Source of the DNA: an uncultured Microbacterium sp.
GTDB lineage: Bacteria > Actinomycetota > Actinomycetes > Actinomycetales > Microbacteriaceae
Length of the DNA: 64,000 nt
Assembly: GCA_913774665.1 (NCBI GenBank)
Contig: CAJYHN010000005.1
Span: 1-64,000, forward strand
Direction of reading: 5' to 3'
Part shown: piece by piece, positions 10,520 to 26,956 of the stretch
How the letters are laid out: the number at the start of each line of letters is the position of its first letter
How positions within the stretch are numbered: the first letter of the stretch is position 1
Position numbers and translations under genes: made by a program
The notes under the pieces: model-generated
What the model was told of the DNA's origin: nothing
Seen by the model: the letters and a program-made list of their open reading frames with translations, nothing else
Databases searched by the model: none

Positions 10520-10539
10520 CCGGATGCCGCGGCATCCGG
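10520..10539. terminator. Palindromic hairpin after xylA
   Basis: A perfect 20-bp palindrome built around GGATGCCGCGGCATCC begins 13 bases after the xylA stop. It can form a strong stem but has no T-run, so it may be a weak terminator, a processing site protecting xylA mRNA, or simply two abutting copies of the genome-wide GGATGCC word. Confidence 0.35.
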
Positions 10540-10610
10540 GCCCCGCTCGCGGTACATTCGCCCCGACTGAATCGCGGCATCCGCCGAGGGGCCCCGCCCT
10601 CACCGCGAGT

Positions 10611-10657
10611 GTCCGGAACACCCGGACGAATTCGAAAAGCCTCCGGGTGTTGTGGAC
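10611..10657. repeat. Intergenic hairpin element, copy 1
   Basis: 16-bp arms (10611-10626 and 10642-10657) with two mismatches enclose a 15-base loop. The core ACACCCGGA...TCCGGGTGT and the 15-base loop length recur in the hairpin at 37742-37800, suggesting a dispersed REP-like element. It lies between xylA and xylB, about 110 bases before the xylB start. Confidence 0.6.
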
Positions 10658-10769
10658 GGTCAAAAGGGAATGGGGGCACGGCGGGGGCCTCGACGCCACG
10701 GGGCGCACCCCCGCGACACAGACAACTCGGACCGCGCCGACGAAGGCGCGGCGGACAGAAGGGCAGAGC

Positions 10770-12164
10770 ATGGCGCTCGTCATGGGAGTCGACTCGTCGA
10801 CGCAGTCGTGCAAGGTCGTCGTCGTCGACGCCGAGACCGGGAAGGTCGTCCGCGAGGGTCGTGCGTCGCACCCCTCGGGCACGTCGGTGAATCCCGAAGC
10901 GTGGTGGAAAGCACTTCAGGATGCCATCGCCCAGGCCGGCGGTCTCGACGAGGTCGCCGCGGTGTCGATCGCGGGCCAGCAGCACGGCATGGTCGTGCTC
11001 GACGCCGAGGGCGCGGTGATCCGCGATGCCCTGCTGTGGAACGACACCCGATCGGCGCAGGCCGCGCGCGACCTGATCGACGAGGTCGGCGCGGTTGAAT
11101 TCGCGGAGCGGACCGGGGCGGTGCCGGTGGCGTCGTTCACGGGCACGAAGCTGCGCTGGCTGCGCGACGCCGAGCCCGACAACGCCGCGCGCGTCGCCGC
11201 CGTCGCCCTGCCCCACGATTGGCTGACCTGGCGTCTGCGCGGCTTCGGCCCCGGTAACGCCGTGCTCGACGAGCTGGTCACCGACCGCTCCGACGCCTCG
11301 GGTACCGCGTACTGGGGAGCGGACGGGTACGATCTCGACCTCTTCGCGCGCGCGCTCGGCCACGAGGCGGTGCTTCCGCGGGTGCTCGGTCCGTGGGAGA
11401 GCGCCGGGGCACTGCCTGGTGGCGCCCTCGTCGGACCCGGCGCGGGAGACAACGCCGGCGCAGCGCTCGGCCTCGGCGCGGGCGTCGGCGACGTGGTCGT
11501 CTCGCTCGGAACCTCGGGCACCGTGTTCGCCGTCACCGACACCCCGGCCCGTGACGCGACGGGCGCCGTCGCCGGCTTCGCCGACGCGACGGGGCGTTTC
11601 CTGCCCCTGGTGGCCACCCTCAACGCCGCTCGGGTGCTCGACGCATTTGCGGGCCTCCTCGGCGTCTCGCACGATGAGCTCGGTGCCCTGGCCCTCGAGG
11701 CCGAGCCCGGCGCCGGCGGCGTGGTGCTCGTACCCTGGTTCGAGGGGGAGCGCACACCGAACCTGCCGCACGCGCAGGCATCGCTGACCGGCCTGACCCT
11801 GGCATCCACGAACCGCCCGAATTTCGCGCGCGCCGCGATCGAGGGCATGCTGAGCGGCTTGGCCGTCGGGCTCGAGGCGATCCAGGCGCAGGGTGTCGAG
11901 GTGCGCCGCGTGCTGCTCATCGGTGGGGCAGCGGCGAACGAGGGAGTGGCGCGCATCGCCGCGCAGGTGTTCGACGCCGAGATCGTCGTCCCCGCCGCGG
12001 GGGAGTACGTCGCGCTCGGTGCGGCCCGCCAGGCGGCGGGAGTGCTCGCGGGCGGACCCGTCGACTGGTCGGTCGCGATGACCCGCACGGTCGAATCCGA
12101 CCACCGACCCGAGATCCGTGAGCGTTACGACGTGATCTCGGCGCTGCGCGCGACGGAGAGCTGA
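10770..12164 (+). CDS. xylB: Xylulokinase
   Basis: 464-residue FGGY-family kinase that phosphorylates D-xylulose to D-xylulose 5-phosphate. N-terminal phosphate loop [12 protein letters not shown], sugar site [10 protein letters not shown] and LLWNDTRS, catalytic Asp in GPGAGDNAG, and ATP-domain motifs [11 protein letters not shown] and [12 protein letters not shown] are all present. The ATG at 10770 is chosen because the conserved phosphate loop starts five residues later; upstream in-frame sequence crosses the repeat element at 10611. The Shine-Dalgarno site is weak. It is co-oriented with xylA. A paralogue with altered sugar residues lies at 14895-16346. Confidence 0.93.
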
Positions 12165-12575
12165 CACCCAGATTGGGGTGGATTCGGCGAACCCGGATGC
12201 GCCAGAGTTAGGGCGGGACCCGTCGACGTCTTGTAAGGGGGGCGTCGGCGGGTTCTTCGCGGGAGCGCTCCCTCGGGGTGCGGGCTGCCCGCCTTGATCG
12301 CCGCGCGTCCGCGCATCCCTCCGTCGCCCGGGGTCGCGACGGCGGCGGCGTCCGCCCCGCCGTCTGCGCGCGTTCGCTCGTCCCCGAGGTGGTGAGTGGT
12401 CGTCGGCCGCGTCCTCAAGCGACGATGGGGTTCACCGTCGTCCATGTTGTACGTACAGACTGGACGATATGGACGTTACGCACTACGCTGACATCCAACG
12501 CGGAAGGGACCGCGGACGGATCGATCCGGGACGCCTCACCGTCCCGCCTCCGTCACCACAACGGAGGGACTGCCC
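12165..12575 (+). promoter_or_regulatory. Regulatory gap upstream of the aldolase/kinase operon, with GntR-type site
   Basis: 411 bases without a gene. The palindrome TGTACGTACA at 12449-12458 is identical to one in front of the transporter at 18641-18650, so one regulator, presumably the GntR protein at 17755-18501, should control both operons. A second perfect palindrome GGGAGCGCTCCC at 12261-12272 has the core of CebR-type LacI operators; no partner is evident. ACGGAGGGA at 12561-12569 is the ribosome-binding site of the aldolase gene. A TACGCT hexamer near 12485 is a possible -10. Nothing else recognisable was seen. Confidence 0.6.
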
Positions 12576-13412
12576 ATGCCTTTGGTCAGCGGACACGACG
12601 TCATCCAGGAGTGCACGGCCCGCGGGCTCGTGGCGGGAGCGTTCAACACCACGAACATCGAGACGACCATGGGCATCATCGATGCGGTCGAGAAGGTCGG
12701 TGTGCCGACCTTCATCCAGGTCGCTCCGACGAATGTGAAGCTCTCCGGCTACGAGTACGTCTACGACATGGTCGCGCGGCGCCTGGCGGACACGACCGTC
12801 CCGGTCGCCCTGCACCTCGACCACGGCAAATCCCTCGCGGCCGTCGAAGCGGCCCTGGCCGCCGATTTCACCTCGATCATGATCGATGCCTCCGAGGAAC
12901 CGCTCGCCGAGAACACCGCCACCTCGGCCACGGCGCGGCGGATGTGCGGTGCGACGATCGCCCTCGAGGCCGAACTCGGCAGCATCGGCGGCAAAGAAGA
13001 CGACGTCGCCCCGGAGTTCGCCAGCACGACGGATCCGGCGCAGGTGGCCGACTTCGTCGCCGCGGTCGGCTGCGACATGCTCGCGGTGTCGGTCGGCAAC
13101 GTGCACGGGTACGCGCCGAACGCGCGCATCGACTTCGACCTCCTCGAGCGCGTGCGCGCGGCCAGCCCGGTCCCCCTCGTCATCCACGGCGGCTCGGGCC
13201 TGCCCGAAGATCAGCTCGGCCGCCTGGCCGACTTCGGCGTGGTCAAGGTCAACGTCGCGAGCGACCTGCGCAACGCCATGATCCGCAGCTTCGGCGAGGC
13301 GTACGCCGCGAACCCGAACGAGAACTCCCTCATCCGGGTCTCCCTCGACGCGGTTGCGGCGATCTCCGACGTCGTCGAGCGTCGCATCCGCATGCTCAAC
13401 CCCTCGCTCTGA
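12576..13412 (+). CDS. Class II ketose-phosphate aldolase (fructose/tagatose-bisphosphate type)
   Basis: 278-residue zinc-dependent aldolase of the Fba/GatY/KbaY family, splitting a ketose phosphate into two smaller carbonyl products. Catalytic Asp82 and zinc ligand His83 lie in HLDHGK. Further ligands are in EAELGSIGGKED (about residues 131-142), His177 (GNVHGYAP) and His204 (VIHGGSG). The short length resembles GatY/KbaY-like catabolic aldolases rather than glycolytic Fba. It is the first gene of an operon with three sugar kinases and is preceded by a GntR-type operator. Whether it cleaves fructose-, tagatose-, sorbose- or a deoxyketose-phosphate cannot be read from sequence. Confidence 0.88.
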   Translation: MPLVSGHDVIQECTARGLVAGAFNTTNIETTMGIIDAVEKVGVPTFIQVAPTNVKLSGYEYVYDMVARRLADTTVPVALHLDHGKSLAAVEAALAADFTSIMIDASEEPLAENTATSATARRMCGATIALEAELGSIGGKEDDVAPEFASTTDPAQVADFVAAVGCDMLAVSVGNVHGYAPNARIDFDLLERVRAASPVPLVIHGGSGLPEDQLGRLADFGVVKVNVASDLRNAMIRSFGEAYAANPNENSLIRVSLDAVAAISDVVERRIRMLNPSL

Positions 13413-13417
13413 CGCTC

Positions 13418-14860
13418 ATGACCCCCACGATCACGGTCGACATCGGCACGACGAGCATCAAGCTCTGCGTGTTCGACGGCGACGGCGCTCTCGTCGTCTC
13501 GCGACGCGTCGCCACGCCCACCGTCGGCGACGGGATCGGCGAGGTCTACGACGTCGCGGCGCTCCTCGACGCCGTCCGGGACTTCGTCGCGGATCTCGAA
13601 CCGGCTCTGCGCCGCGCGGTCCAGCGCATCGCGCTCGCGGGCGTGGGCGAATCGGGAGGGCTCGTCGGCGCCGACCTCTCGCTGCGATCGCCCATGATCC
13701 TCTGGCACGATCAGCGCGGCGCCGCCCTGCTGCGAGACTTCACCCCTGTGCAGCGGGAGCGCGTCTACGCCGTCACCGGGTTGCCCGTCAACGCCAACTA
13801 CGCGCTCTCCAAGGTCGCGTGGGCCCTGGCCCACGCCGAGGGCGACACCGCCGACGCCCTCTGGCTCAATGTGTCGGAGTTCGTCGCCGCGCTGCTGACC
13901 GGTCGACGGTGGTCCGAGCCCTCGCTGGCCAGCCGCACCATGGCGCTCGACCTGCGCGAGCGGCGCCCTTCGCGCGAGGTGTGCGCGCTCCTCGGCGTCG
14001 ATCCGGCGATCTTCCCCCCGCTGCGTCCGGCGGCGCTCGGCGTCGCGATGGATCCCGCGATCGCGCACACCTGGGGCCTTGACGAGGTGACGGTCCACGT
14101 CGCCGGCCACGATCACATGGTCGGGGGTGTCGGCGCCGACCTTCAGCCGGGGGAGATGCTCGATTCCACCGGGACCACCGAGGGGATCCTCACCCTCGTG
14201 CGCGAACCGCGGACGGATGCCGCCACCGCGGCGACCAAGATCGCGGGCGGCCTCGCCTGCGACGGCGAGTTCTTCACGCTCTTCGCCTCCATCCCGACCG
14301 GGGGCTCGGCCTTCGCGACGGTGCGCACGCTCCTCGACCGCGACGAGGCGGAGGTGCGCGCGCTCATCGACCGCGCCCACCGGGCCTACCTCGACGGGAA
14401 GATCGACCTCGGTCGTGTCCCCCTCGTCCTGCCGCGTTTCCGCGGCAGTCCGCCGCCGGACAAGGACGCGAGCGCCCGAGGCGCGATCGCGGGCGTGGGC
14501 ACCGACACCACCGCCGTCGAGCTCGTGTTCGGGTGCTTCCTCGGGCTCGCCCGCCAGTTCGCGGACGTCTGGGCCCTCTTCGGCGCGGACCTGGACCGCG
14601 TGAAGGTCATCGGGCCCGCGGCATCCAATCCGCTCTGGCTCCAGCTCAAGGCCGACCTGCTCGGTGCTCCGGTCAGCGCCGCCGGGGTCGACGAGATCGT
14701 CTCCCGCGGAGCGCAAGCGCTGGCGCACGGCGCCCTCCGCCCCTGGGAGGACGCGCTCCCCCGCGAGATCGCCCCCGATCCGCGTCGACACCGGATGCTG
14801 CAGGACGGGGTCGCCGCCACCGCCGCGCGCTGGGAACACCTGAAGGCGATGCCGGCGTGA
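13418..14860 (+). CDS. FGGY-family carbohydrate kinase (first of three in this operon)
   Basis: 480-residue sugar kinase. It has phosphate loop ITVDIGTTSIKLCVF at the N-terminus, a domain-1 segment GVGESGGLV in place of the xylulokinase GQxHG, and the active-site Asp in HVAGHDHMVGG. LDSTGTTEG is the ATP-domain phosphate loop. The GHDH motif separates it from the XylB subgroup and groups it with the kinase at 16405. It starts five bases after the aldolase stop, so the two are co-transcribed. The substrate is unidentified; tetrulose, ketohexose or deoxyketose kinases of actinobacteria are possible relatives. Confidence 0.87.
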   Translation: MTPTITVDIGTTSIKLCVFDGDGALVVSRRVATPTVGDGIGEVYDVAALLDAVRDFVADLEPALRRAVQRIALAGVGESGGLVGADLSLRSPMILWHDQRGAALLRDFTPVQRERVYAVTGLPVNANYALSKVAWALAHAEGDTADALWLNVSEFVAALLTGRRWSEPSLASRTMALDLRERRPSREVCALLGVDPAIFPPLRPAALGVAMDPAIAHTWGLDEVTVHVAGHDHMVGGVGADLQPGEMLDSTGTTEGILTLVREPRTDAATAATKIAGGLACDGEFFTLFASIPTGGSAFATVRTLLDRDEAEVRALIDRAHRAYLDGKIDLGRVPLVLPRFRGSPPPDKDASARGAIAGVGTDTTAVELVFGCFLGLARQFADVWALFGADLDRVKVIGPAASNPLWLQLKADLLGAPVSAAGVDEIVSRGAQALAHGALRPWEDALPREIAPDPRRHRMLQDGVAATAARWEHLKAMPA

Positions 14861-14894
14861 TCGCCGCACGCTCCTCCGAACGAAAGGCGCAGCG

Positions 14895-16346
14895 ATGAGG
14901 CTCGTCGCGGGAATCGACTCGTCCACCCAGAGCTGCAAGGTCACCGTGCGCGACCTCGACACCGGGGTCTGCGTCCGAGAAGGGTCGGCGCCGCACCCGG
15001 CCGCGACCATCGTCGACCCGGACGTGTGGTGGCACGCCCTGCTCGACGCCGTGCAGGCGGCGGGAGGACTCGACGACGTGCTCGCGGTGTCGGTGAGCGG
15101 ACAGCAGCACACGCCGATCTTCCTCGACGCGACCGGAACCCCCGTGACCGCGTCGCCCCTCTGGAACGATCTGGGCTCGCACCCGCACATGATGGCGTTG
15201 AACGCCGAGCTGGGTCGGGACACCTGGATCCGGCGGACAGGTCTGCCCCTCACCCTGTCGGACACGGTGGTCAAGGCGCGCTGGTTGCGCGACGAGTTCC
15301 CGGATGCCGCCGCCCGCACCGCGGCCATCGCCGTGGTGCACGACTGGCTCACCTGGCGTCTGCGCGGATTCGGTCCCGGCACGGGGGGCATCGACAGCCT
15401 CGTCACGGACCGGTCCGAAGCATCGGGGACCGGGTACTGGTCCGGCGAGACGGGGGAGTACACCCTCGATCTGCTCGAGCACGCGTTCGGCCATCCGGTC
15501 GTGCTGCCCGTCATCCTCGGCCCCCTCGAGCGTGCCGGGGTCACGGCCGCCGGACTGCCCGGCATCCCCGCCGGCCTTCCGATCGGGGTCGGCAGCGGTG
15601 ACAACGCCGCTGCGGCTCTCGCGCTGGGTCTCGAAGAGGGGGACGCCGTCCTGAGCCTGGGCACCTCGGGCGTCGTCTACGCGCGCACGGCGGATCCTGT
15701 CCACGACTACGCGGGGTACGTCTGCAGCTACGCCGACGCCACCGGCGATCACCTGCCGATCGTCGCGACCCTGAATGCGGCGCGCAACCTGCAGGTCGGT
15801 GCGGAACTGCTGGGGTGCACGCACGAGGAGCTCGCCGAGCTCGCGCTCGCGGCACCCCCGGGAGCGGAGGGGCTGACGCTGCTGCCGTATTTCGAGGGGG
15901 AGCGCACACCCGACCTGCCGCACGCGCGGGCGGCCGTGCTGGGCGCGAGCCTCTCCAACTTCACACGGGCGAACATGGCGCGCGCGATCGTCGAGGGGAC
16001 GGTGGTGAGTCAGGTCGCGATGCTGGACGCGCTCGCCGCGTGCGGTGTGCACTCGCGCCGCTTGCTGGTGATCGGCGGTGCGGCGAAGAACCGTGCCGTC
16101 CAGCGCGTACTGGCCGAGCTCGTCGACCTGCCCCTCGCCGTGCCGACGGCCGACGAGTACGTCGCCAAGGGCGCCGCGATGCAGGCGGCGGCCGCGCTCA
16201 CCGGTGCCTTCCCCCGATGGTCCGTGGAGACCTCCCCCGTCGCCCCCGCGCCCCCCGCTCCCCAGGTCGCGCGACAGCACCACGATGCGCAGCTCGCCCT
16301 CGGCTACCTCGCGAGCGCGCCGTCTCCCACGCCCGCGCGCGTCTGA
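14895..16346 (+). CDS. Xylulokinase-like FGGY kinase with altered sugar-site motifs
   Basis: 483-residue kinase clearly paralogous to XylB at 10770: it shares [22 protein letters not shown], the GSGDNA catalytic region and EGERTPDLPHA. Residues that contact the sugar in xylulokinases differ: GQQHG becomes GQQHTP and WNDTR becomes WNDLG, so a different ketose (or epimer) is likely. It carries a Pro/Ala-rich C-terminal extension of about 35 residues (PVAPAPPAPQ) absent from XylB. GAAAGGCGC about ten bases before the ATG provides a weak ribosome-binding site. It is the middle gene of three consecutive kinase genes. Confidence 0.87.
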   Translation: MRLVAGIDSSTQSCKVTVRDLDTGVCVREGSAPHPAATIVDPDVWWHALLDAVQAAGGLDDVLAVSVSGQQHTPIFLDATGTPVTASPLWNDLGSHPHMMALNAELGRDTWIRRTGLPLTLSDTVVKARWLRDEFPDAAARTAAIAVVHDWLTWRLRGFGPGTGGIDSLVTDRSEASGTGYWSGETGEYTLDLLEHAFGHPVVLPVILGPLERAGVTAAGLPGIPAGLPIGVGSGDNAAAALALGLEEGDAVLSLGTSGVVYARTADPVHDYAGYVCSYADATGDHLPIVATLNAARNLQVGAELLGCTHEELAELALAAPPGAEGLTLLPYFEGERTPDLPHARAAVLGASLSNFTRANMARAIVEGTVVSQVAMLDALAACGVHSRRLLVIGGAAKNRAVQRVLAELVDLPLAVPTADEYVAKGAAMQAAAALTGAFPRWSVETSPVAPAPPAPQVARQHHDAQLALGYLASAPSPTPARV

Positions 16347-16404
16347 TCGGCACCGCTAAGGTCGAGGGGAGGGCACTCGTCTTCGCCCCCGGGAGGAATC
16401 GACG

Positions 16405-17748
16405 GTGACTCTGCGCGTACGCCTTCCGGTCGTGGTGGGCATCGACGTGGGCAGCACCAACACCAAGGTCGTCGCGCTGACCGCGGACGGCGCCGTCGTG
16501 GCTCGCGCCAGTCGCCCCACGCGGCGCGCCGGGGCAGACCTCGCCGTCGACGCGGCCGCTCTGGTGCTCGCGATCGAGGACATGGTCGTCGAGGTCTGCG
16601 GCGACAGTCGCGTGATCCACGCCCTGTGCGTCGCCGGGATCGGGGAGGACGGCGTCCTCGTCGACGGGCGGCTGCGCCCGCTGACCCCCGCCCTGGCGTG
16701 GTTCGACCCGCGGCGTCACGCCGTCTTCGAGGCACTGCGCCCCGACCTCGTCGATGATCACACCTTCGACGTCGACACCGATCCGGTGCGTTCCCTCGTG
16801 GGCTGGAGGTGGGCCCGGGCGCAGCCGGGAACCGAGCGCGCCGCCGCGTGGATCGCCCTCACCGACCTCCCGGCCGTCGCCTGGACCGGCCGCGCCTTCC
16901 TCAGCGACACCCTCGCCCCGCGCACAGCGGCCTGGCGCAGCGGCGAACGCGCCTGGGCCCACGATCGCGTGGCCGTGTCCCTCGGCGACCAGAACCTGCT
17001 TCCGCCCGTCGTCCCCACCGGGGAGGTGGTCGGCGAGATCGTTTCTCCGGCGCTCCGCGCGGCGGGAGTGATGGCGGCGGATGCCATCGCCGTGGCCGGC
17101 GGTCACGATCACCCGATCGGGGGGTGGGGCGTGCAGCTCATGGTCCCGGGAGCGGTGCTCGATTCGATGGGCACCGCCGAGGTGGTCGTCGCGCAGTCGT
17201 CGTCCGCGAGGCGGCGGGGCGATGACCACGTCGATGTGGCCCCCGGCATCCGCGCCTCCGGCAGCACCCTGTTGCTCGTCGAGGAGTTGGCGCGCAACGT
17301 GCAGTGGGCATCGCGTGACGCCGAGGTGGGGCGCGCGATCCGGCACCTGTTGATCGGTCGCTCCGTACCCCTGCCGCTGTGGGAGTCGGGCTGGTTCGTC
17401 CCCGGTCAGCGGGGCGGAGGGCAGCCGTCGTACGCACCCGATGCGCCGGTCGACCCCCGTGTCCGTGCATCCGCGGTGCTGGGAGCCCTCGCGGTGGCCG
17501 GTCGCGACGCGGTCGACGCGGTGCGACGTGACGTGGGCGGCACGGCCGAGGTCCGCATGGCCGGGGGATGGGTGCGCTCCCCGGGCTGGATCGCGCTGAA
17601 GGCCGCCGTGAACGGGGCGCCCGCGGTGCCCATCCTCGAGCCGGAGGTCACGGCGGTCGGAGCCGCGCTGCTCGCGGCGACCGCGCGCGGGTGGAGTCCC
17701 GACCCGGTCGACGCGCTGGGGGGCTTCGTCAGCGGGATGCTGGGATGA
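16405..17748 (+). CDS. FGGY-family carbohydrate kinase (third of three)
   Basis: 447-residue kinase, somewhat short for the family (480-520). It has phosphate loop VVVGIDVGSTNTKVVAL, domain-1 motif GIGEDGVLV, WFDPR, the active-site GGHDHPIGG and ATP-domain LDSMGTAEV. It belongs with the kinase at 13418 rather than XylB because of GHDH. The start is GTG at 16405, preceded by GGGAGGAA (16391-16398). Its stop lies six bases from the convergent stop of the GntR gene, leaving almost no terminator space. The substrate is unknown; three non-identical kinases in one operon could serve different epimers or successive steps. Confidence 0.84.
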   Translation: MTLRVRLPVVVGIDVGSTNTKVVALTADGAVVARASRPTRRAGADLAVDAAALVLAIEDMVVEVCGDSRVIHALCVAGIGEDGVLVDGRLRPLTPALAWFDPRRHAVFEALRPDLVDDHTFDVDTDPVRSLVGWRWARAQPGTERAAAWIALTDLPAVAWTGRAFLSDTLAPRTAAWRSGERAWAHDRVAVSLGDQNLLPPVVPTGEVVGEIVSPALRAAGVMAADAIAVAGGHDHPIGGWGVQLMVPGAVLDSMGTAEVVVAQSSSARRRGDDHVDVAPGIRASGSTLLLVEELARNVQWASRDAEVGRAIRHLLIGRSVPLPLWESGWFVPGQRGGGQPSYAPDAPVDPRVRASAVLGALAVAGRDAVDAVRRDVGGTAEVRMAGGWVRSPGWIALKAAVNGAPAVPILEPEVTAVGAALLAATARGWSPDPVDALGGFVSGMLG

Positions 17749-17754
17749 GGGTGT

Positions 17755-18501
17755 TCAGCTCGCCGAGACGCTGACCTCGAGCGGGATGACGTCGGTGAGC
17801 ACCCAGGTCTCGTAGTAATCGAACCGCGTGCCATCGGCCGCCCAGGACGAGGAGCGCACGCGCAGCACGGGGTGGCCCGGTTCGACGTCGAGGTGAGCGG
17901 CGACCGCGTCCGGCGCGGCCAGGGCGTGGATCACCCGCTGCGCGCCGCTGCTGATGAAGCCCGCCGATCGCAGGTGACTGTTGAGCGAGGCCGATCCGTC
18001 GAGCACGCCCGACTCGCTGGCGATCGTCCGGGCCACCTCGCGGGGGAACCAGTTCGTGCTGTACATGGCCCGGCGTCCGTCGAGCGCGCGGACGCGCTCC
18101 AGTGCGAACACCTCGGTGTCGGGGCCGACGCGCAGGGCGTCCGCGACGTGGGCTTCGGGGTGGACGTAGCCCGTCTGCACGACGGTGGTCGTGATGCCCG
18201 TCCGTCCGTGCCGCAGCTGCGATTCGAGGAAGCCCTCCTGAACGGTCCACCCGGCCGTCTGTCCGGGAACGCTCGCGAACACGCCGCGCCGCGGGACGCG
18301 GTGCGCGTACCCGTCGTTCTCGAGCTTGGTCAGCGTCTGGCGCACCGTGGCTCGCGACAGGCCGAACTCGCGGCACAGCTCGAGTTCGCTGGGCAGTCGT
18401 TCTTCCTCGGCGATCTCGCCCTGCGAGATCTGCTCGCGCAGGATCTCGTAGAGCTGTTCGTAATACGGCACGGGGGAGACCCGTTCGATCGTGTGCGCCA
18501 C
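17755..18501 (-). CDS. GntR-family (HutC/UTRA subfamily) transcriptional regulator
   Basis: 248 residues. The N-terminal winged helix (about residues 8-75) has recognition helix LSRATVRQTLTKLENDG and wing segment RVPRRGVF. A UTRA effector domain follows (residues 95-240), ending in a YYETWVLTDVIPL strand; UTRA domains bind sugar phosphates. The gene is divergent from the transporter operon. CTGTACAG and TGTACGTACA sites lie in the shared intergenic region and in front of the aldolase operon, which suggests autoregulation plus control of both flanking operons. The effector is probably a phosphorylated intermediate made by one of the adjacent kinases. Confidence 0.92.
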   Translation of the reverse strand: MAHTIERVSPVPYYEQLYEILREQISQGEIAEEERLPSELELCREFGLSRATVRQTLTKLENDGYAHRVPRRGVFASVPGQTAGWTVQEGFLESQLRHGRTGITTTVVQTGYVHPEAHVADALRVGPDTEVFALERVRALDGRRAMYSTNWFPREVARTIASESGVLDGSASLNSHLRSAGFISSGAQRVIHALAAPDAVAAHLDVEPGHPVLRVRSSSWAADGTRFDYYETWVLTDVIPLEVSVSAS

Positions 18502-18558
18502 GTGATTCTCCTCGTCGTCGTGCGCATCGTCGCGCCTTCGTCGTACGTTTGGTTCTGA

Positions 18559-18687
18559 CTGTACAGACGGTGCGGATACCCGATCCCGCGAACCCCCGAG
18601 CCGTCATCCGTTCTCATCTTCTGAATTGCGCTGTACATTCTGTACGTACAAGACGTACGATACGGGCAGGGCTTCGGTCCTGTACAG
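18559..18687. promoter_or_regulatory. Cluster of GTAC-centred operators between the GntR gene and the transporter operon
   Basis: Four related sites stand in the 237-base divergent gap: CTGTACAG (18559-18566), CTGTACAT (18631-18638), TGTACGTACA (18641-18650) and CTGTACAG (18680-18687). The 10-bp palindrome is identical to the one at 12449-12458. GntR/HutC regulators typically bind such GT-N-AC palindromes. The arrangement allows repression of both divergent promoters. The transporter start codon has GAGAGGAAG at 18723-18731 as ribosome-binding site. Confidence 0.65.
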
Positions 18688-18738
18688 CGAAACCGCCATC
18701 TACCCCAGAGGCTTCTGCACTTCAGAGAGGAAGTACGC

Positions 18739-19803
18739 ATGCGAACTTCACCCATCACCGGACTCGCCCTCTTCGGCGCCGGCGCGCTGCTGCTCGCCGG
18801 ATGCGCGGGCGGTGCATCCGGCGACGCCGGCTCCGGCGAGCCGGCCGACACTCCGCTGAGCTACTCCCAGCCCCACACCGACCCGTTCCAGAACGCCGAG
18901 AACGTCGGCTCCATGGAGCGCTTCGCCGAGATCGGCTACGCCACCATCCCGGCCACCAACGCCGACCGCGACGCGGCCCAGCAGATCACCGACATCCAGA
19001 CGCTCATCAACAAGGGCGCCAAGGGCCTGGTCATCTCCGTCGGCGACGCCGACGCGATCGTCCCGGCCATCGAGTACGCCAACGACTCGAGCGTTCCGAT
19101 CGTCGCGATCGACGAAGCCCCCGCCTCCGGCAAGATCGCCATGATCGTCCGCGCCGACAACGTCCAGATGGGCGAGCTCGCGTGCGAGGAGATGGGCAAG
19201 CGCGTCGCGGCCGATGCGGTCGTCGTCACCCTCGACGGAGACCCGGTGACCTCGAACGGTCGTGATCGCACCAACGGATTCAACGACTGCATGGCCTCGA
19301 AGTACCCGGGCGTCAAGCTCGTGAACGTCGCCACCGAATGGGACCCCGCGAAGGCGGCATCCGGTATCGAGACCGCGCTGAACCAGTACGGCAACGTCGC
19401 GGGTATCTACAACCAGAGCGACGCGACCTTCTTCCCGACGATCCTCGACACGCTCAAGTCGGCCGGCAAGCTCGTGCCCGCGGGGCAGACGGGCCACATC
19501 GTGCAGGTCTCGGTCGACGCCAGCCCGATGGCGATGAACGCGATCCGCGACGGATGGCTGGATGCCGCCGTCGCCCAGCCGATGACCGACTACATCGACT
19601 ACGGCGTCGACTACCTCACCCGCGCCATCAAGGGCGAGACCTTCCAGCCGGGAGCCACCGACCACGGCAGCACGATCGAGGAGCGCAACGGCAACCTCGT
19701 CGACCTGCTGCCCACGCCCGTCGTGACCAAGGACAACGTCGAAGACCCGGACCTCTGGGGCAACAAGAAGTTCGCCCTCGACGCGTTCGGCGTCAGCAAG
19801 TAA
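18739..19803 (+). CDS. CUT2 sugar ABC transporter substrate-binding lipoprotein
   Basis: 354-residue RbsB-type binding protein, full length. Lipobox LLLAGC with Cys22 shows anchoring to the outer face of the membrane. The two-lobed type 1 fold is recognisable: domain 1 includes DIQTLINKGAKGLVISVGDADAI, the ligand region includes DGDPVTSNGRDRTNGF, and the hinge is near SVDASPMAMNAIRDG. It heads a transporter operon (binding protein, ATPase, permease, isomerase) under the GntR-type operator cluster. The sugar is unknown; acidic and Asn/Arg residues at binding positions are compatible with a pentose, hexose or polyol. Confidence 0.93.
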   Translation: MRTSPITGLALFGAGALLLAGCAGGASGDAGSGEPADTPLSYSQPHTDPFQNAENVGSMERFAEIGYATIPATNADRDAAQQITDIQTLINKGAKGLVISVGDADAIVPAIEYANDSSVPIVAIDEAPASGKIAMIVRADNVQMGELACEEMGKRVAADAVVVTLDGDPVTSNGRDRTNGFNDCMASKYPGVKLVNVATEWDPAKAASGIETALNQYGNVAGIYNQSDATFFPTILDTLKSAGKLVPAGQTGHIVQVSVDASPMAMNAIRDGWLDAAVAQPMTDYIDYGVDYLTRAIKGETFQPGATDHGSTIEERNGNLVDLLPTPVVTKDNVEDPDLWGNKKFALDAFGVSK

Positions 19804-19841
19804 CCCCGCCATCCACCCCCCCCCAGCGAGACGGAGACGTC

Positions 19842-21347
19842 ATGACCATCCTCACGGCCACCGTGCCCGCCATCCAGATCGACGGCGTGAGCAAGACCTA
19901 CGGTGCGACGAAGGCCTTGCAAGACGTCTCCGTCTCGATCCTCCCCGGGCAGGTGCACGGCCTCATCGGGCGCAATGGTGCGGGAAAATCCACCCTGCTG
20001 CGCATGATCACGGGCCTCGAGACGCCCGACACGGGGACGGTGAGCTTCTTCGGGGAGGCGGCCCCGCCGGCATCCGATCCCAAGGCCTGGCAACAACGCG
20101 TGGCCTGCGTATACCAACGGCCCTCGGTCTTCGCGAACCTCACCATCGCGGAGAACCTCTTCGCGGGGCGCCTGCCCACCACCGGCGCCCGCGTCTCGTG
20201 GGCGAAGATGCAGTCCGAGGCCGAGCGGATCCTCGACGCGTGGAACATCCGCCTCGACCCGAAGCTGCTGCTCGCGGACGCCCCGATCGAGGAGCGTCAG
20301 ATGCTCACGATCGCGAAGGCGCTCGAGGCGGGGACGCGCATCGTCCTCCTCGACGAGCCCACCGTGCAGCTCGAGGGCGCCGCCATCCGACGCCTCTTCG
20401 ACAAGGTGCAGGAGCTGCAGGAAGCGGGCGTCACCTTCGTGTTCGTCTCGCACTTCCTCCGGGAGGTGACCGCGATCTGCGACTCGGCGACCGTGCTGCG
20501 CGACGGGAAGCTGCTCTGGTCGCGCACCGGCGACGACATCCGTTCCGACGACCTCGTCGACGCCCTGCTCGCGGGCCAGGAGCAGCGTCGGCACCGTGCC
20601 GAGAACACCGCTCCGGCCCTCGACGCCCGATCCGCCGTGCAGCTGCGCGGGGCCACCGATCGCGAGGGGGCGTTCACGGACGTCACCCTCTCGGTCGCGC
20701 CCGGCGAGCTGATCGCCATCGGCGGCGTGGGCGGATCGGGGAAGTACTCGGTGGGCGAGGCCATCGCGGGACTCCGGCCGCTCGGCGGCGGGGAGATCGT
20801 CGTCGCGGGCGACCCGATCCGCACCGGCGACGTCAAAGCCAGCCAGCGGGCGGGCGTCGGTTTCGTCCCCGCCGACCGGCACAAGGACGGATACGTCCCC
20901 CAGCTCAGCGTCGCCGAGAACATGACCATGGGCGTCATGGACCAACTCGCCCCGAGGGGCTTCTTCTCGCCGCGCGCGCAGACCGAGATGTCGCGAACGC
21001 TCATCGCCGACGTGGCCCTCGTGCCCCCGGACCCGAAGCTCGCCGTGTCGGGCCTGAGCGGCGGCAACCAGCAGAAGGTCGTTCTGGCGCGGGCGCTCGC
21101 GCGCTCCCCTCGAGTGCTGGTGCTCATCTCGCCCACCGCGGGTGTCGACATCGCCGCGAAGGACGCCATCTACGCCCTGATGCTGAGGGCCCTCGCCGAC
21201 GGCGTCGCCGTCATCCTCATCTCCGATGACGTCGAGGAGCTGCTGGTCAGCCCCCGCGTCCTCATCATGCGCGAGGGACGGATCTCGTCCGAACTCGCTG
21301 ACCCCACCGAAGAAGACATCGTTCGAGCCATCGAAGGCCTGGAGTGA
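19842..21347 (+). CDS. Tandem-domain CUT2 sugar ABC ATPase with a degenerate second nucleotide-binding domain
   Basis: 501 residues, RbsA-like with two fused ATPase domains. Domain 1 keeps Walker A GRNGAGKST (residues 43-51) and Walker B IVLLDEPT but lacks an LSGG signature (DAPIEERQ), as in RbsA. Domain 2 keeps the signature LSGGNQQKVVLARAL, but its Walker A reads GGVGGSGKYS (about 297-306) and its Walker B LVLISPTAG (about 425-433), so both the Walker B Asp and the catalytic Glu are replaced by Ile and Ser. Only one hydrolytic site can therefore be active, formed by domain 1 Walker motifs and the domain 2 signature. RbsA homologues normally keep DEPT in domain 2. Its stop overlaps the permease start by four bases. 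Confidence 0.92.
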   Translation: MTILTATVPAIQIDGVSKTYGATKALQDVSVSILPGQVHGLIGRNGAGKSTLLRMITGLETPDTGTVSFFGEAAPPASDPKAWQQRVACVYQRPSVFANLTIAENLFAGRLPTTGARVSWAKMQSEAERILDAWNIRLDPKLLLADAPIEERQMLTIAKALEAGTRIVLLDEPTVQLEGAAIRRLFDKVQELQEAGVTFVFVSHFLREVTAICDSATVLRDGKLLWSRTGDDIRSDDLVDALLAGQEQRRHRAENTAPALDARSAVQLRGATDREGAFTDVTLSVAPGELIAIGGVGGSGKYSVGEAIAGLRPLGGGEIVVAGDPIRTGDVKASQRAGVGFVPADRHKDGYVPQLSVAENMTMGVMDQLAPRGFFSPRAQTEMSRTLIADVALVPPDPKLAVSGLSGGNQQKVVLARALARSPRVLVLISPTAGVDIAAKDAIYALMLRALADGVAVILISDDVEELLVSPRVLIMREGRISSELADPTEEDIVRAIEGLE

Positions 21348-22366
21348 ACACCGTGCGAACCACCGTCGTCAGAACCCCCGTCAGCACCCCGAACCCGGTG
21401 GTGCGCTCCGTCGTGAAGAACGTGCGCGAGCTGAGCGTCCTGCCGGGCCTCATCATCGTCGCGATCGTCGGAGCCGTCGTCAGCCCCGCGTTCCTGTCCG
21501 CCGCGAACCTCACGCTGATCCTGCGGCAATCCGCCGAACTCGGGATCGTCGTGATCGGCCTGACGTTCATCCTCATCACCGGCAAGCTCGACATCTCGCT
21601 CGAGTCGACCGTGGGCCTGGCCCCCATGGTCGCCGCGTGGCTGATGGTGCCGGCCGCGATGGGCGGCCTGGGCTCCGAGATCGGGCCCGGGGTGGCCATC
21701 CTCGTCACCCTCGCGATCGGTGTCCTGATCGGGTTGATCAACGGCTTCCTCGTCGTGAAGGTCAAGCTCGATCCGTTCATCGTCACGCTGGCGATGCTGA
21801 TCCTGCTGCGCGGCATCACGCTCGGCGTCAGCCAGGGCAAGACCCTCGCCGGCCTGCCCGAGGCCTTCCGCTACGTCGGTTCGGCGCGCTGGGCCGGCAT
21901 CCCCGCGGCGATCTGGATCACCGGCATCCTGTTCCTCGTCGCCGGGCTCGTGCTCCGCTACACCGCGTGGGGCCGTGCGCTCTACGCGATCGGCGGCAAC
22001 GCCGACGCGGCCCGCGCCGCCGGCATCCGGGTCGATGCCGTCCTCATCACCGCCTTCGTCGTGGCCAGCGCGCTCGCCGCCTTCGCCGGTCTCATGCTCG
22101 CGGGGCGTCTCGCCTCGGTCACCAGCGGCATGGGCGACAACCTCATCTTCAGCGCGCTCGCCGCGGCCGTCATCGGCGGCGTGCAGCTCAACGGCGGGCA
22201 GGGGCGCATCGTGGGGGCCCTCCTGGGCGTGCTGCTGCTCGGCACCCTGACGAACGTGCTCACGCTCGCCGGTGTCCCCACCTTCTGGATCAACGCCGTG
22301 TACGGTGCGGTCATCCTCCTGGCGCTGCTCGTCGGCCGCTGGGGTGCCCGCTCGAACGCGCACTGA
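21344..22366 (+). CDS. CUT2 sugar ABC transporter permease (RbsC-like)
   Basis: 340-residue membrane permease with about 8-10 transmembrane segments. The family blocks GLTFILITGKLDISLESTVG, INGFLVVKVKLDPFIVTLAML and IGGVQLNGGQGRIVGALLG are split among helices as in RbsC. An N-terminal hydrophilic stretch of about 35 residues rich in Thr and Val precedes the first helix. The start is GTG at 21344 within the stop of the ATPase gene (GTGA overlap), so translation is coupled. It pairs with the ATPase at 19842 and the binding protein at 18739. Confidence 0.92.
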   Translation: MNTVRTTVVRTPVSTPNPVVRSVVKNVRELSVLPGLIIVAIVGAVVSPAFLSAANLTLILRQSAELGIVVIGLTFILITGKLDISLESTVGLAPMVAAWLMVPAAMGGLGSEIGPGVAILVTLAIGVLIGLINGFLVVKVKLDPFIVTLAMLILLRGITLGVSQGKTLAGLPEAFRYVGSARWAGIPAAIWITGILFLVAGLVLRYTAWGRALYAIGGNADAARAAGIRVDAVLITAFVVASALAAFAGLMLAGRLASVTSGMGDNLIFSALAAAVIGGVQLNGGQGRIVGALLGVLLLGTLTNVLTLAGVPTFWINAVYGAVILLALLVGRWGARSNAH

Positions 22367-22401
22367 GCCCGAGACCGCAGACGAAAGAAAGGACCGCGCC
22401 C

Positions 22402-22968
22402 ATGTCGGAATTCCAGGACATCAGTTCGACCGTCGTCGCCGAGTTGGGGGAGGTGTTCCGCCGCGTACCGGAGGAGAACCTCGACGCCGCCCTCGACGCC
22501 CTCGAAAAGCACCAGCGCATCTTCGTGCTCGGCATCGGGCGGGAGGGGCTCGGCTCCAAGGCCTTCGCGATGCGCCTCACGCACTTCGGGAAGACCGTGC
22601 ACTGGGGATGGGACGACACCACGCCCGCGGTCACGGCGGGCGACCTGTTCATCATGCCCACGGGCCCGGCGAACATCCCGCACCTGCATTACGTCGCGGA
22701 GCAGGTCAAGAAGACGGGCGCGACACTGCTCGTCGCCACGGCCGTCCCCGACGGGCCGACCGCGCAGCTGGCCGACATCGTGCTGACGGTGCCCGCCCAC
22801 ACCTACGGCGCCGACGACCCGAGCGTTCTGGTCCCCACCATCCAGGCGATGGGGAGCCTGTTCGAGCAGTCGCTCTGGATCTTCTGGGACGTGCTGTACC
22901 TCATGCTCGTGCGTCGCACCGGCGCGAAGTTCGAGGATCTCGTCGCCCGGCACCGCAACTTCGAGTGA
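22402..22968 (+). CDS. SIS-domain sugar-phosphate isomerase, 6-phospho-3-hexuloisomerase-like
   Basis: 188-residue SIS-domain protein, the size of HxlB/PHI enzymes, which convert 3-hexulose 6-phosphate to fructose 6-phosphate. The phosphate-binding motif FVLGIGREGLGSKAFAMRL (residues about 44-62) and the second SIS strand LFIMPTGPANIPHLHYV are visible. PHI proteins usually have SGTG or SGSG where this protein has MPTGPA. A catalytic His/Glu pair typical of PHI may be supplied by HLHY and EQSLW. It ends the transporter operon 35 bases after the permease, with ATG preceded by GAAAGAAAGGA. In this setting it probably isomerises the phosphorylated imported sugar; no hexulose-phosphate synthase is present in the window. 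Confidence 0.8.
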   Translation: MSEFQDISSTVVAELGEVFRRVPEENLDAALDALEKHQRIFVLGIGREGLGSKAFAMRLTHFGKTVHWGWDDTTPAVTAGDLFIMPTGPANIPHLHYVAEQVKKTGATLLVATAVPDGPTAQLADIVLTVPAHTYGADDPSVLVPTIQAMGSLFEQSLWIFWDVLYLMLVRRTGAKFEDLVARHRNFE

Positions 22969-22978
22969 ACCATCCCGG

Positions 22979-23013
22979 ATGCCCCGGTTCCGTCCCCTAC
23001 GGAGCCGGGGCAT
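22979..23013 (+). terminator. Strong hairpin ending the GntR-regulated transporter operon
   Basis: 15-bp stem (22979-22993 pairing with 22999-23013) with one G-U-type mismatch and a 5-base loop, beginning 11 bases after the isomerase stop. A T-run is absent, as is common in high-GC actinobacteria. It insulates the operon from the following LacI gene. Confidence 0.8.
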
Positions 23014-23128: not shown

Positions 23129-24097
23129 ATGAGCGGCGACACCGGCGGCAAGCGCATCGGCGTGCGTGACGTCGCCGTCGCCGCCGGGGTGTCGGCGCAG
23201 ACGGTCTCGCGCGTCCTGAACGGATACCCCGGCATCCGCGAGGCGACCAGGGAGCGCGTACTCGACGCGGTCGCCGCCCTGGACTATCGCGTGAACAACG
23301 CCGCGCGCGCACTCGGCACGAGCCTGACGCGGACGGTCGGGGTCGTGGCATCCGACGCCGTCCTGCACGGACCGGCCGCGGGGATCACCGCCCTCGAGCG
23401 GGCCGCGCGGGCGCGCGGTCGGTGGATTTCGACCGCCTACACAGACTCGGACGACCCCGCCGACATCGACGCCGCCGCGCGCCACCTCCTGGATCAGGGG
23501 GTCGACGGGATCGTGCTCGTCGCCGCGCACGGAGCCACCTCCCTCGAGGGATACGACGTGCCGATCGTGCCGCTGTACGGCGAGTCCGGGAGTCGCCAAC
23601 GCGATGCGGCCGCCCTCGTCGTGGATCACCTCGCCGACCTCGGGCACCGGCGCATCGTCGAGGTGGCCGGCCCGTCGGACTGGCGCGAGGCCCTCGCGCG
23701 CACGGCCGGCGTCGCCGACGCCGTGGACCGCCGCGGCCTCGAACGCGCGGACCGGCTCGAGGGAGACTGGAGCGCGGCTTCGGGGGCTGCCGTCGCGGAG
23801 GTGGTCGCTTCCGGCATCGCGGCGGGGGCCACGGCCGTCGCGGTCGCCAACGATCAGATGGCCCTCGGACTCACGGCCGGTCTCACGTCCCGAGGACTTC
23901 GGGTGCCGGCGGACGTCTCGGTCGCGGGCTTCGACGACAATCCGGATGCCGCGTTCTACACCCCGTCGCTCACGACGGTGCGCCTCGATGTCGAGGGGGA
24001 AGCGGAGTACGCCGTGGCCGCCGTGCTGGGCGACGCGGTCGTCGCGCCGGCGGCTCCCGTGCTGGTGGTCCGGGACTCCACCGCCCCTCCGGCCTGA
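23129..24097 (+). CDS. LacI-family transcriptional regulator, candidate regulator of the arabinose operon
   Basis: 322-residue repressor. The N-terminal helix-turn-helix VRDVAVAAGVSAQTVSRVLNG (split over two helices, residues about 12-32) and hinge helix NNAARALGTSLT are followed by a periplasmic-binding-protein-like effector domain ending DVSVAGFDDNPDAAFYTPSLTTVR. The ATG at 23129 lies eight bases after a TACTGT -10 (23115-23120) with no ribosome-binding site, so the mRNA is probably leaderless. It lies upstream of araD in the same orientation. The perfect LacI-type operator at 24585-24600 suggests it controls araD-kinase-araA, but control of the preceding operon is also possible. Confidence 0.92.
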   Translation: MSGDTGGKRIGVRDVAVAAGVSAQTVSRVLNGYPGIREATRERVLDAVAALDYRVNNAARALGTSLTRTVGVVASDAVLHGPAAGITALERAARARGRWISTAYTDSDDPADIDAAARHLLDQGVDGIVLVAAHGATSLEGYDVPIVPLYGESGSRQRDAAALVVDHLADLGHRRIVEVAGPSDWREALARTAGVADAVDRRGLERADRLEGDWSAASGAAVAEVVASGIAAGATAVAVANDQMALGLTAGLTSRGLRVPADVSVAGFDDNPDAAFYTPSLTTVRLDVEGEAEYAVAAVLGDAVVAPAAPVLVVRDSTAPPA

Positions 24098-24269
24098 CGC
24101 CGCACGGGCTCTGGCGCGCGGGCTCCGCGCGCGGGGCGCGGCGCGCGGGGCCGGTGCTGCGGCGGGCAGCGACGCGGCTGCGGGCCAGCGGCGCCGGAGG
24201 TCGGCGCGGCGGCGGGCCGTGACGCGTGCGCAGGGTCCCGGCGCCCGGGGCTGGCGCGGCGCCGGGCCG

Positions 24270-24353
24270 TGCGAAACTCCTGAGAAAGCGCCCTGATCTG
24301 CCTCCCCGCCCCGGAGTATTCGCCTGGAGGGCTCGAAACTCCGGAGTTTCGCA
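24270..24353. repeat. Large hairpin with exact 11-bp ends
   Basis: TGCGAAACTCC at 24270-24280 is exactly inverted at 24343-24353, and the right end is itself a perfect 18-bp palindrome (24334-24351, CGAAACTCCGGAGTTTCG). The element lies in the 554-base gap between the LacI gene and araD, starting 172 bases after the LacI stop. No open frame within it looks coding. It resembles a REP/BIME-type intergenic element. Confidence 0.6.
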
Positions 24354-24422
24354 CACCCCGCCGCGCCGCGACGCCGCCGACCCCCCGCACACCCCGCCGC
24401 GCCGCGACGCCGCCGAACCCCC
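24351..24422. repeat. Two tandem copies of a 36-bp GC-rich unit
   Basis: Units of 36 bp start at 24351 and 24387 (GCACACCCCGCCGCGCCGCG...) and are nearly identical. Only two copies exist with no spacer, so this is not a CRISPR. It lies directly next to the preceding hairpin. Confidence 0.7.
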
Positions 24423-24460
24423 GCCCGCCCTTCGCCCCGCGCCCGGCCCAACGGCGCCTC

Positions 24461-24537
24461 GAGATCACACGATCGGCGCGAGATCACGCGGTCCGGCCGC
24501 GCTGCAGCACGTCATCTCGCGCCGATCGTGTGGTCTC
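24461..24537. repeat. 24-bp inverted repeat with 29-base loop upstream of araD
   Basis: Left arm 24461-24484 (GAGATCACACGATCGGCGCG plus AGAT) pairs with 24514-24537 with a single mismatch. It could act as a transcriptional roadblock or terminator ahead of the araD promoter, or be a mobile REP-like element. It ends 48 bases before the ara operator. Confidence 0.8.
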
Positions 24538-24584
24538 GGTGCGCGCGGGCGGCAACCCGCGAAAAGCGCCCTCGCGGCGCCGCG

Positions 24585-24600
24585 ATGTTACCGGTAACAT
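24585..24600 (+). promoter_or_regulatory. Operator/promoter of the arabinose operon
   Basis: Perfect 16-bp palindrome ATGTTACCGGTAACAT, with the central CG typical of LacI-family operators. Its right end contains TAACAT, a fair -10 hexamer, so binding would prevent transcription of araD. The araD GTG start follows 51 bases later, preceded by AAGGAG at 24640-24645. Confidence 0.7.
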
Positions 24601-24651
24601 TACGGATCGAGGGCGCCGCGCCCACCCCGAACCCCGTCGAAGGAGACACGC

Positions 24652-25368
24652 GTGTCCGATGCCGCCACGTTCGCGCCCGAGGTGCAGGAGGCGATCGACG
24701 CCGTCCGCGCCGACGTCGCGAAACTGCACGCCGAGCTCGTGCGCTACAACCTCATCGTCTGGACCGGCGGCAACGTCTCAGGTCGCGTGCCCGGAGCCGA
24801 CCTGTTCGTCATCAAGCCCTCCGGCGTCTCGTACGACGACCTGGCTCCCGAGAACATGATCCTCTGCGACCTCGACGGCAACGCGATCCCCGGCACGCCC
24901 GGCTCCGAGCGCAGCCCCTCGAGCGACACCGCGGCCCACGCCTACGTGTACCGGAACATGCCCGAGGTCGGCGGGGTCGTGCACACGCACTCCACCTACG
25001 GCGTCGCCTGGGCCGCCCGCGGCGAGGAGATCCCCTGCGTCATCACGGCCATGGCCGACGAGTTCGGCGGACCCATCCCCGTCGGTCCGTTCGCGATCAT
25101 CGGCGACGACTCGATCGGCCGCGGCATCGTCGAGACCCTGCGCGGGCACCGCTCGCGCGGCGTCATCATGCAGAACCACGGTCCCTTCACGATCGGCACG
25201 AACGCGAAGGACGCCGTCAAGGCCGCCGTCATGCTCGAAGACGTCGCTCGCACCGTGCACATCGCGCGCGAGGCGGGCCCGCTCATCCCGATCCCGCAAG
25301 ACAAGATCGACGCCCTCTACAACCGCTACCAGAACGTCTACGGACAGAGCACGGACGACCGCCGATGA
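24652..25368 (+). CDS. araD: L-ribulose-5-phosphate 4-epimerase
   Basis: 238-residue class II aldolase/adducin-fold zinc enzyme converting L-ribulose 5-phosphate to D-xylulose 5-phosphate, the last step of L-arabinose catabolism. The visible motifs are GGNVSGR near residue 41, IKPSGVSYDDL (phosphate site), zinc ligands in VVHTHSTY (about residues 107-114) and a third His in MQNHGPFTIG. The start is GTG with a good AAGGAG. Being first in an araD-kinase-araA operon distinguishes it from the fuculose-phosphate aldolases of the same fold. The 3' end overlaps the next start by four bases (ATGA). Confidence 0.93.
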   Translation: MSDAATFAPEVQEAIDAVRADVAKLHAELVRYNLIVWTGGNVSGRVPGADLFVIKPSGVSYDDLAPENMILCDLDGNAIPGTPGSERSPSSDTAAHAYVYRNMPEVGGVVHTHSTYGVAWAARGEEIPCVITAMADEFGGPIPVGPFAIIGDDSIGRGIVETLRGHRSRGVIMQNHGPFTIGTNAKDAVKAAVMLEDVARTVHIAREAGPLIPIPQDKIDALYNRYQNVYGQSTDDRR

Positions 25369-26936: not shown

Positions 26937-26956
26937 TCACCCGAAAAGGAACAGTC

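Follow-up and report, generated by a model that had tools for sequence, protein, structure and literature searches.

A GntR-controlled Microbacterium gene cluster with three FGGY kinases, a class II aldolase and a SIS protein lacking the phosphate loop: a possible cassette for catabolism of a free sugar via a ketose bisphosphate

The window analysed here, positions 1 to 64,000 of contig CAJYHN010000005.1 from an uncultured Microbacterium sp. (assembly GCA_913774665.1), contains a cluster of nine genes: an operon for a class II aldolase and three FGGY-family kinases, called K1, K2 and K3 in the following, an operon for a CUT2 sugar transporter and a protein of the SIS family, and between the two a GntR/UTRA regulator gene (Table 1). 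A reading made from the letters of the DNA alone (the sequence-only reading) had placed these genes in the same way, and reading frames and profile searches bear it out, all nine genes being open reading frames at these places and the three kinase frames being intact. The aldolase matches PF01116 with 254.1 bits (cut-off 25.5) and its nearest NCBIfam model NF005943 (PRK07998) with 342.9 bits, below the curated 364, a model to which an E. coli relative scores 557; it is closest to fructose/tagatose-bisphosphate aldolases. K1 and K2 reach the gathering score for both FGGY domains, and K3 reaches it for FGGY_N, its FGGY_C match amounting to 22.5 of 27 bits. The three kinases are indeed non-identical, as had been claimed, with a GHDH motif in K1 and K3 and GQQHT in K2, a XylB relative. 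K2 resembles the xylulokinase XylB in its score to TIGR01312 (322.2 bits) and in its closest PDB chain, 3i8b (E 2e-105), but differs in staying below the 380-bit cut-off and in having GQQHT for GQQHG; a separate XylB-type protein of the window (10524-12164), a xylulokinase encoded directly upstream of the aldolase gene, has GQQHG and lies above the cut-off (387.6 bits). The transporter has all parts that define a CUT2 system, a Peripla_BP_4 binding protein, an ATPase with two ABC stretches and a BPD_transp_2 permease, and the regulator has both the GntR and the UTRA domain that define the GntR/HutC type. None of the nine genes codes for uptake by a phosphotransferase system (PTS).

Table 1. 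Genes and operators of the cluster, with positions in the window
Feature	Position	Strand	Basis and proposed role
Operator TGTACGTACA before aldolase-kinase operon	12448-12457	not assigned	exact match
Class II aldolase, FBA/TBP family	12576-13412	+	PF01116 match; nearest NCBIfam NF005943, below cut-off
K1, FGGY kinase with GHDH	13418-14860	+	domain profiles and motif; proposed second-phosphate kinase
K2, XylB-like FGGY kinase with GQQHT	14895-16346	+	domain profiles and motif
K3, divergent FGGY kinase with GHDH	16405-17748	+	proposed first kinase of the 2-ketose
GntR/UTRA regulator	17755-18501	-	GntR and UTRA domains
Operator TGTACGTACA between gntR and binding-protein gene	18641-18650	not assigned	exact match
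CUT2 sugar-binding protein, ribose-binding fold, altered pocket	18739-19803	+	Peripla_BP_4
CUT2 ATPase	19842-21347	+	two ABC stretches
CUT2 permease	21344-22366	+	BPD_transp_2
SIS isomerase, HxlB-like, without SGSGxT phosphate loop (GREG, PTGPAN)	22402-22968	+	profile and motifs

How widely do these genes occur, and do they stay together? Genome contigs scanned with the SIS sequence as query yielded 17 loci (88-99% identity) in Microbacterium, Herbiconiux, Schumannella and Frigoribacterium, and 12 further regions around K1 or SIS matches added four loci, the other eight being taken as duplicates. The resulting set of 22 distinct loci, window included, was found through SIS or K1 and is thus not an unbiased sample. 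All nine genes occur together in 17 of the 22, in all four genera and in three gene orders: the order of the window in Microbacterium, the core inverted beside the binding protein in Herbiconiux and Frigoribacterium, and the core 3' of SIS in Schumannella. Two loci (L035, L047) are incomplete through contig ends. In Microbacterium sp. 5K110 (L037, 1-6300) transporter and SIS are kept and the kinase-aldolase block is gone, the gntR match being 195 bases long, and in two other loci (L073, L074) the aldolase, K1, K2, K3 and GntR genes occur with neither SIS nor window-type CUT2 genes in the stretch; no SIS relative was found in the whole genomes of these two at E values up to 1e-5, with a query that found SIS elsewhere. 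Within the genus, 14 of 295 genomes have K1 at E values up to 1e-80; across the phylum, six of 396 have it at E values up to 1e-40, five of the six being only 32-34% identical. The aldolase, K1, K2, K3 and GntR genes form a fixed core around which transporters are swapped, and SIS goes with the transporter, not with the kinase-aldolase core. In L045 and L046 (Schumannella) and in L079 an extra permease of the RbtT/DalT/CsbX type follows directly after the operator, matching TIGR00897 in L045 with 493 bits (cut-off 375). L073 has a CUT1 transporter and an RbtT/DalT-type permease (TIGR00897, 494 bits), each adjoining an operator, and no dehydrogenase seen by eye; L074 has a different CUT2 transporter, a Zn-dehydrogenase and a CUT1 transporter around the core. 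In both loci polyol-type transporters stand where the window has its CUT2 genes and SIS.

The two operons of the window had also been claimed to share an operator, and this holds. TGTACGTACA is found twice in the 64 kb at up to one mismatch, with 0.17 matches expected in shuffles, and its exact occurrences in the whole 3.58 Mb genome are likewise two, one before each operon. Outside the window, the other 21 loci, which add up to 420,707 bases, contain 26 exact sites, at least one in 17 of the 21, and 20 Markov-2 replicates of the same loci contained one site in total, indicating that the shared operator is real and conserved; chance is ruled out by the shuffles, the genome-wide scan and the Markov control. 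The sites precede the aldolase gene, the binding-protein gene, the gntR and CUT1 genes of L073 and permease genes of the major facilitator superfamily (L045, L046, L073, L079). Four loci have no exact site (L043, L044, L047, L074); in L043 and L044, sites that deviate at one position lie between the genes for aldolase and binding protein, and L047 is cut by a contig end. That the two operons form one regulon is thus supported by the operator they share. Further TGTACA half-sites lie at 18560, 18632 and 18681 around the operator between gntR and the binding-protein gene (18551-18690), which suggests several binding sites.

What does the SIS protein act on? Its best NCBIfam family is HxlB of the ribulose monophosphate (RuMP) pathway (TIGR03127, 144.3 bits). 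Like HxlB it has the glutamate of GSLFE and a C-terminal histidine (RHxNxE), which we take to be the catalytic residues, but unlike HxlB it lacks SGSGxT, has no hxlA neighbour, lies in a sugar-uptake operon and stays below the cut-off of 160 bits. SIS enzymes hold the phosphate by means of the SGSGxT loop. In 21 of 21 window-type SIS rows, among which some genomes are counted twice, GREG and P(T/S)GP(A/S)N replace GRSG and SGSGxT and an acidic residue is gained, as is seen for L077 and L079 too, and all 26 paralogues listed from this bacterial family (L007-L032, out of 53 matching genomes) keep GRSG and an SGSG(T/E)T phosphate loop. The source genome gives no second SIS match at E values up to 1e-15. 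Plasmid-borne relatives were drawn from 318 matching records, of which 40 were listed and 11 taken, chosen partly for lacking an hxlB label; eight of the 11, all alphaproteobacterial (L059, L060, L064-L069), also carry GRE and xGPG, and the other three (L070-L072) are canonical or near canonical. The eight genes, near position 8000 of their loci, are labelled SIS domain-containing or are unannotated. They adjoin sugar ABC-transporter genes, and several loci also have dehydrogenases, TIM-barrel proteins, FGGY or dihydroxyacetone kinases, the unannotated neighbours being partly read by eye and the permease match of L066 lying under the Pfam cut-off. A tree built after removal of the motif columns sets the 28 GRE rows apart by a single branch, recovered in 92% of 200 bootstrap trees from a bootstrap that has not settled. 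Moreover, an hxlA-like gene adjoins 29 of 29 canonical SIS genes and occurs in none of 27 GRE-type SIS loci, and neither L073 nor L074 has one. By its motifs, the GRE-type branch probably isomerises an unphosphorylated sugar.

The sequence-only reading had SIS isomerise a ketose phosphate before aldol cleavage, and a SIS protein of this kind, working between the kinases and the aldolase and holding its sugar phosphate by other residues or at another end of the molecule, would agree with several observations: its closest family is a phosphosugar isomerase, the presumed catalytic Glu and His are retained, three kinases are available in the cluster, and SIS and kinases share an operator in the window strain. 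Replacement of SGSGxT and GRSG in all 21 rows with an added acidic residue, the linkage of SIS to the transporter and the occurrence of the core in two genomes (L073, L074) without a SIS relative at E values up to 1e-5 nevertheless make ketose-phosphate isomerisation less likely, and we consider it improbable.

The CUT2 binding protein has a ribose-binding fold. Its model has a predicted local distance difference test score (pLDDT) of 75.5, and Foldseek finds ribose- and other sugar-binding proteins that are 16-25% identical among the 50 matches listed and therefore too far for ligand assignment. At seven of twelve positions that we take to contact ribose in this fold the protein differs (D48, Q51, S100, E126, W201, S227 and V259), W201 for Phe being a mild change. 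Since these seven positions differ and are all invariant in 12 aligned sequences, the binding protein probably has one fixed ligand other than ribose.

Further relatives were reached through K3, which matched seven plasmid records, six of them taken (all but H49). A Rhodococcus cluster (L056, 5678-15085) has relatives of K3 (56% identity) and of the window's GntR (49%) in company with a class I aldolase, DhaK/DhaL, a Zn-dehydrogenase and two permeases of the RbtT type; three exact and one near TGTACGTACA site were seen in it. Five alphaproteobacterial plasmids (L058, L061, L085-L087) carry K3 (33-37%) together with GntR (39-42%), a CUT1 transporter, a dehydrogenase, a DeoC-family aldolase and a dihydroxyacetone kinase. 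Exact TGTACGTACA sites are present in six of these six K3 loci outside the family, ten sites in all, with 0.007-0.014 expected per locus by base composition. These clusters are thus like the window in K3 (33-56%), GntR (39-49%) and the exact operator, but unlike it in having one FGGY kinase, a class I aldolase and a dihydroxyacetone kinase, and no K1, K2 or class II aldolase was seen in them. Their parts recur around the core: the permease of L045 shares 71% and that of L073 70% identity with the Rhodococcus pair, the dehydrogenases of L074 and L056 are 51% identical, and for the CUT1 binding proteins the identity between L073/L074 and L058/L061 is 58-61%. The class I aldolases of L056 and L058 are 81% identical, and the best NCBIfam match of this aldolase is the ADTH-synthase model, below cut-off. 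For the CUT1 binding protein of L058 the best solved relative is 4RYA (E 4e-123), according to PMC12718374 a D-mannitol (hexitol) binding protein solved with D-mannitol. In Paracoccus pantotrophus (L086) an exact operator (13269-13278) precedes genes for a sugar-binding protein, an ATPase and a ribose-type permease next to the CUT1/K3 cluster, so the regulon may include CUT2 uptake in that species as well.

K1 and the aldolase have relatives in an operon of E. coli (L057, L063; 1253-6861 in L063) located between nikR and HicAB/yhhJ, which codes for GntR, PTS IIA, IIB and galactitol-type IIC, a K1-like kinase, HPr and a class II aldolase. Like the window it has a K1-type kinase (36%) and the aldolase (49%) in one operon; unlike the window it has PTS instead of ABC uptake and no SIS, K2 or K3. 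A match to its aldolase gene is present in 1617 of 5426 complete E. coli genomes, and no described substrate for the operon was found in open-licence PMC papers. The record of L057 (NZ_CP134663.1) bears the title E. coli plasmid unnamed1 but, with its 4.9 Mb and its nik and rbbA genes, looks like a mislabelled chromosome.

How could these genes make up a pathway? Read jointly, the gene sets of the K3 clusters, the E. coli operon and L074 lead us to infer that K3 adds a first phosphate and K1 a second, and the substrates and phosphorylated positions given below are meant in the same sense. We tentatively propose, with somewhat less than even confidence, that the cluster is a GntR-controlled catabolic cassette that takes a free monosaccharide via a 2-ketose, most likely a ketohexose, through two phosphorylations to aldol cleavage. 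Briefly, the transporter, CUT2 at family level, would bring in the free sugar, and SIS would isomerise it to the 2-ketose without prior phosphorylation. K3 would phosphorylate the 2-ketose, probably at C1, and K1 would add the second phosphate to give a ketose bisphosphate, roles suggested by their conserved neighbours, and the class II aldolase would cleave the bisphosphate to dihydroxyacetone phosphate (DHAP) and a triose phosphate. GntR would probably act at TGTACGTACA as a repressor of the two operons and be released when it binds a compound of the pathway, and K2, a retained XylB-like kinase, may serve a second ketose. In Rhodococcus and the alphaproteobacteria a polyol would be converted by the dehydrogenase to a ketose, followed by K3, the class I aldolase and then dihydroxyacetone kinase, and in E. 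coli the PTS would deliver a sugar phosphate to the K1-like kinase and the class II aldolase. SIS in the window and the dehydrogenase in L074, there with polyol uptake, would deliver the same 2-ketose. The more far-reaching proposal, a SIS subfamily for unphosphorylated ABC-delivered sugars and an FGGY ketose-phosphate kinase within a modular hexitol/ketohexose regulon, marked by TGTACGTACA and common to Actinomycetota and Alphaproteobacteria, we put forward as rather doubtful.

Several points weigh against the free-sugar cassette. The scheme leaves K2 without a step. The argument for a free sugar as SIS substrate is drawn from motifs only; the predicted SIS structure (pLDDT 47, from an input of 12 of 17 orthologues) is too poor to use, and the support of the GRE clade, 94/80, falls slightly short of the threshold set by the tool itself. 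In L074, 19.9 kb contain no TGTACGTACA at up to one mismatch. The E. coli operon also has none within one mismatch and its GntR is 29% identical to that of the window over 150 residues, so this operon shares enzymes and not the regulon. The ligand of 4RYA may not be the natural one. Furthermore, Table 1 of PMC3245297 (2011) gives nine FGGY functions, none acting on a sugar phosphate, and the K1 step would therefore be new for the family.

Pentitols or pentuloses are indicated as well, which likewise counts against a ketohexose, by the RbtT/DalT permeases (TIGR00897 in L045 and L073), by the XylB-like K2 with its 322 bits and by the pentose genes that adjoin the cluster in Microbacterium. Together with the ribose-type fold of the binding protein they would suit a route in which a five-carbon polyol or ketose is cleaved to DHAP and glycolaldehyde or its phosphate. 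Cleavage of a bisphosphate would, however, give glycolaldehyde phosphate, an awkward product, among solved structures the closest relative of the CUT1 binding proteins is a hexitol binder, the E. coli version comes with a galactitol-type PTS, and seven of the twelve presumed ribose contacts differ; we regard the five-carbon route as unlikely.

Alternatively, the sugar may be familiar and only the genes unfamiliar, the 2-ketose being D-fructose or D-tagatose formed from mannitol, sorbitol or galactitol by textbook chemistry. The nearness of the aldolase to fructose/tagatose-bisphosphate aldolases and the hexitol-binding relative, solved with D-mannitol (PMC12718374), agree with such an origin, but a free-sugar SIS step and a double FGGY phosphorylation are part of no route found in open-licence PMC papers, and a familiar sugar of this kind seems distinctly improbable to us. 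A PfkB-type kinase is used in the PTS route for D-tagatose. In that route tagatose-1-phosphate is converted to the bisphosphate and cleaved by a GatY-type aldolase (PMC10101011); it is like the window in that a ketohexose is phosphorylated twice and handed to a class II aldolase, but unlike it in PTS uptake, the window having FGGY kinases and a free-sugar transporter. An ordinary RuMP/formaldehyde route is rejected by the missing hxlA, the altered SIS motifs and the want of a hexulose-phosphate synthase of note in the genome (a single weak match of 31 bits, E 3.4e-7, with 33% identity along about 96 residues), in line with the sequence-only reading, which had seen no such synthase with the SIS protein, and the Lsr-like pathway for autoinducer 2 by the weak matches of the LsrK, LsrB and LsrF models.

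As to the surroundings of the cluster, the LacI gene (23129-24097) and the AraD-type gene (24652-25368) were considered as further members and dismissed, as close relatives adjoin in only 7 of the 22 loci, a count in which some loci reach less than 2 kb beyond SIS. The region 23129-28468, with LacI regulator, AraD-type epimerase, FGGY kinase and an open reading frame (26957-28468) that by eye resembles L-arabinose isomerase, is apparently an L-arabinose operon adjoining the cluster. With the xylulokinase gene directly upstream, the cluster thus sits between that gene and the apparent L-arabinose genes in the source genome.

The sequence-only reading could match the gene set to no named pathway, and this still stands for open-licence PMC papers: judged by title and start of abstract, none describes the cluster, the E. 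coli operon or the regulon, although a description in a subscription journal could be missed by such a search, and no known pathway was found in which all members have close characterised homologues. The cluster appears as an unfamiliar version of known kinds of sugar catabolism, the proposed free-sugar SIS branch being its most surprising part. If the proposal is true, HxlB-like proteins that lack the loop and are encoded in sugar-transporter operons would be free-sugar isomerases and not hexulose-phosphate isomerases, forming a non-phosphate branch of a family otherwise taken as specific for phosphosugars, and an FGGY kinase would have replaced the phosphosugar kinase that usually carries out such a step. 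Moreover, the swapping of modules suggests substrates, namely hexitols and rare ketohexoses, for several unexplained clusters, the E. coli operon included.

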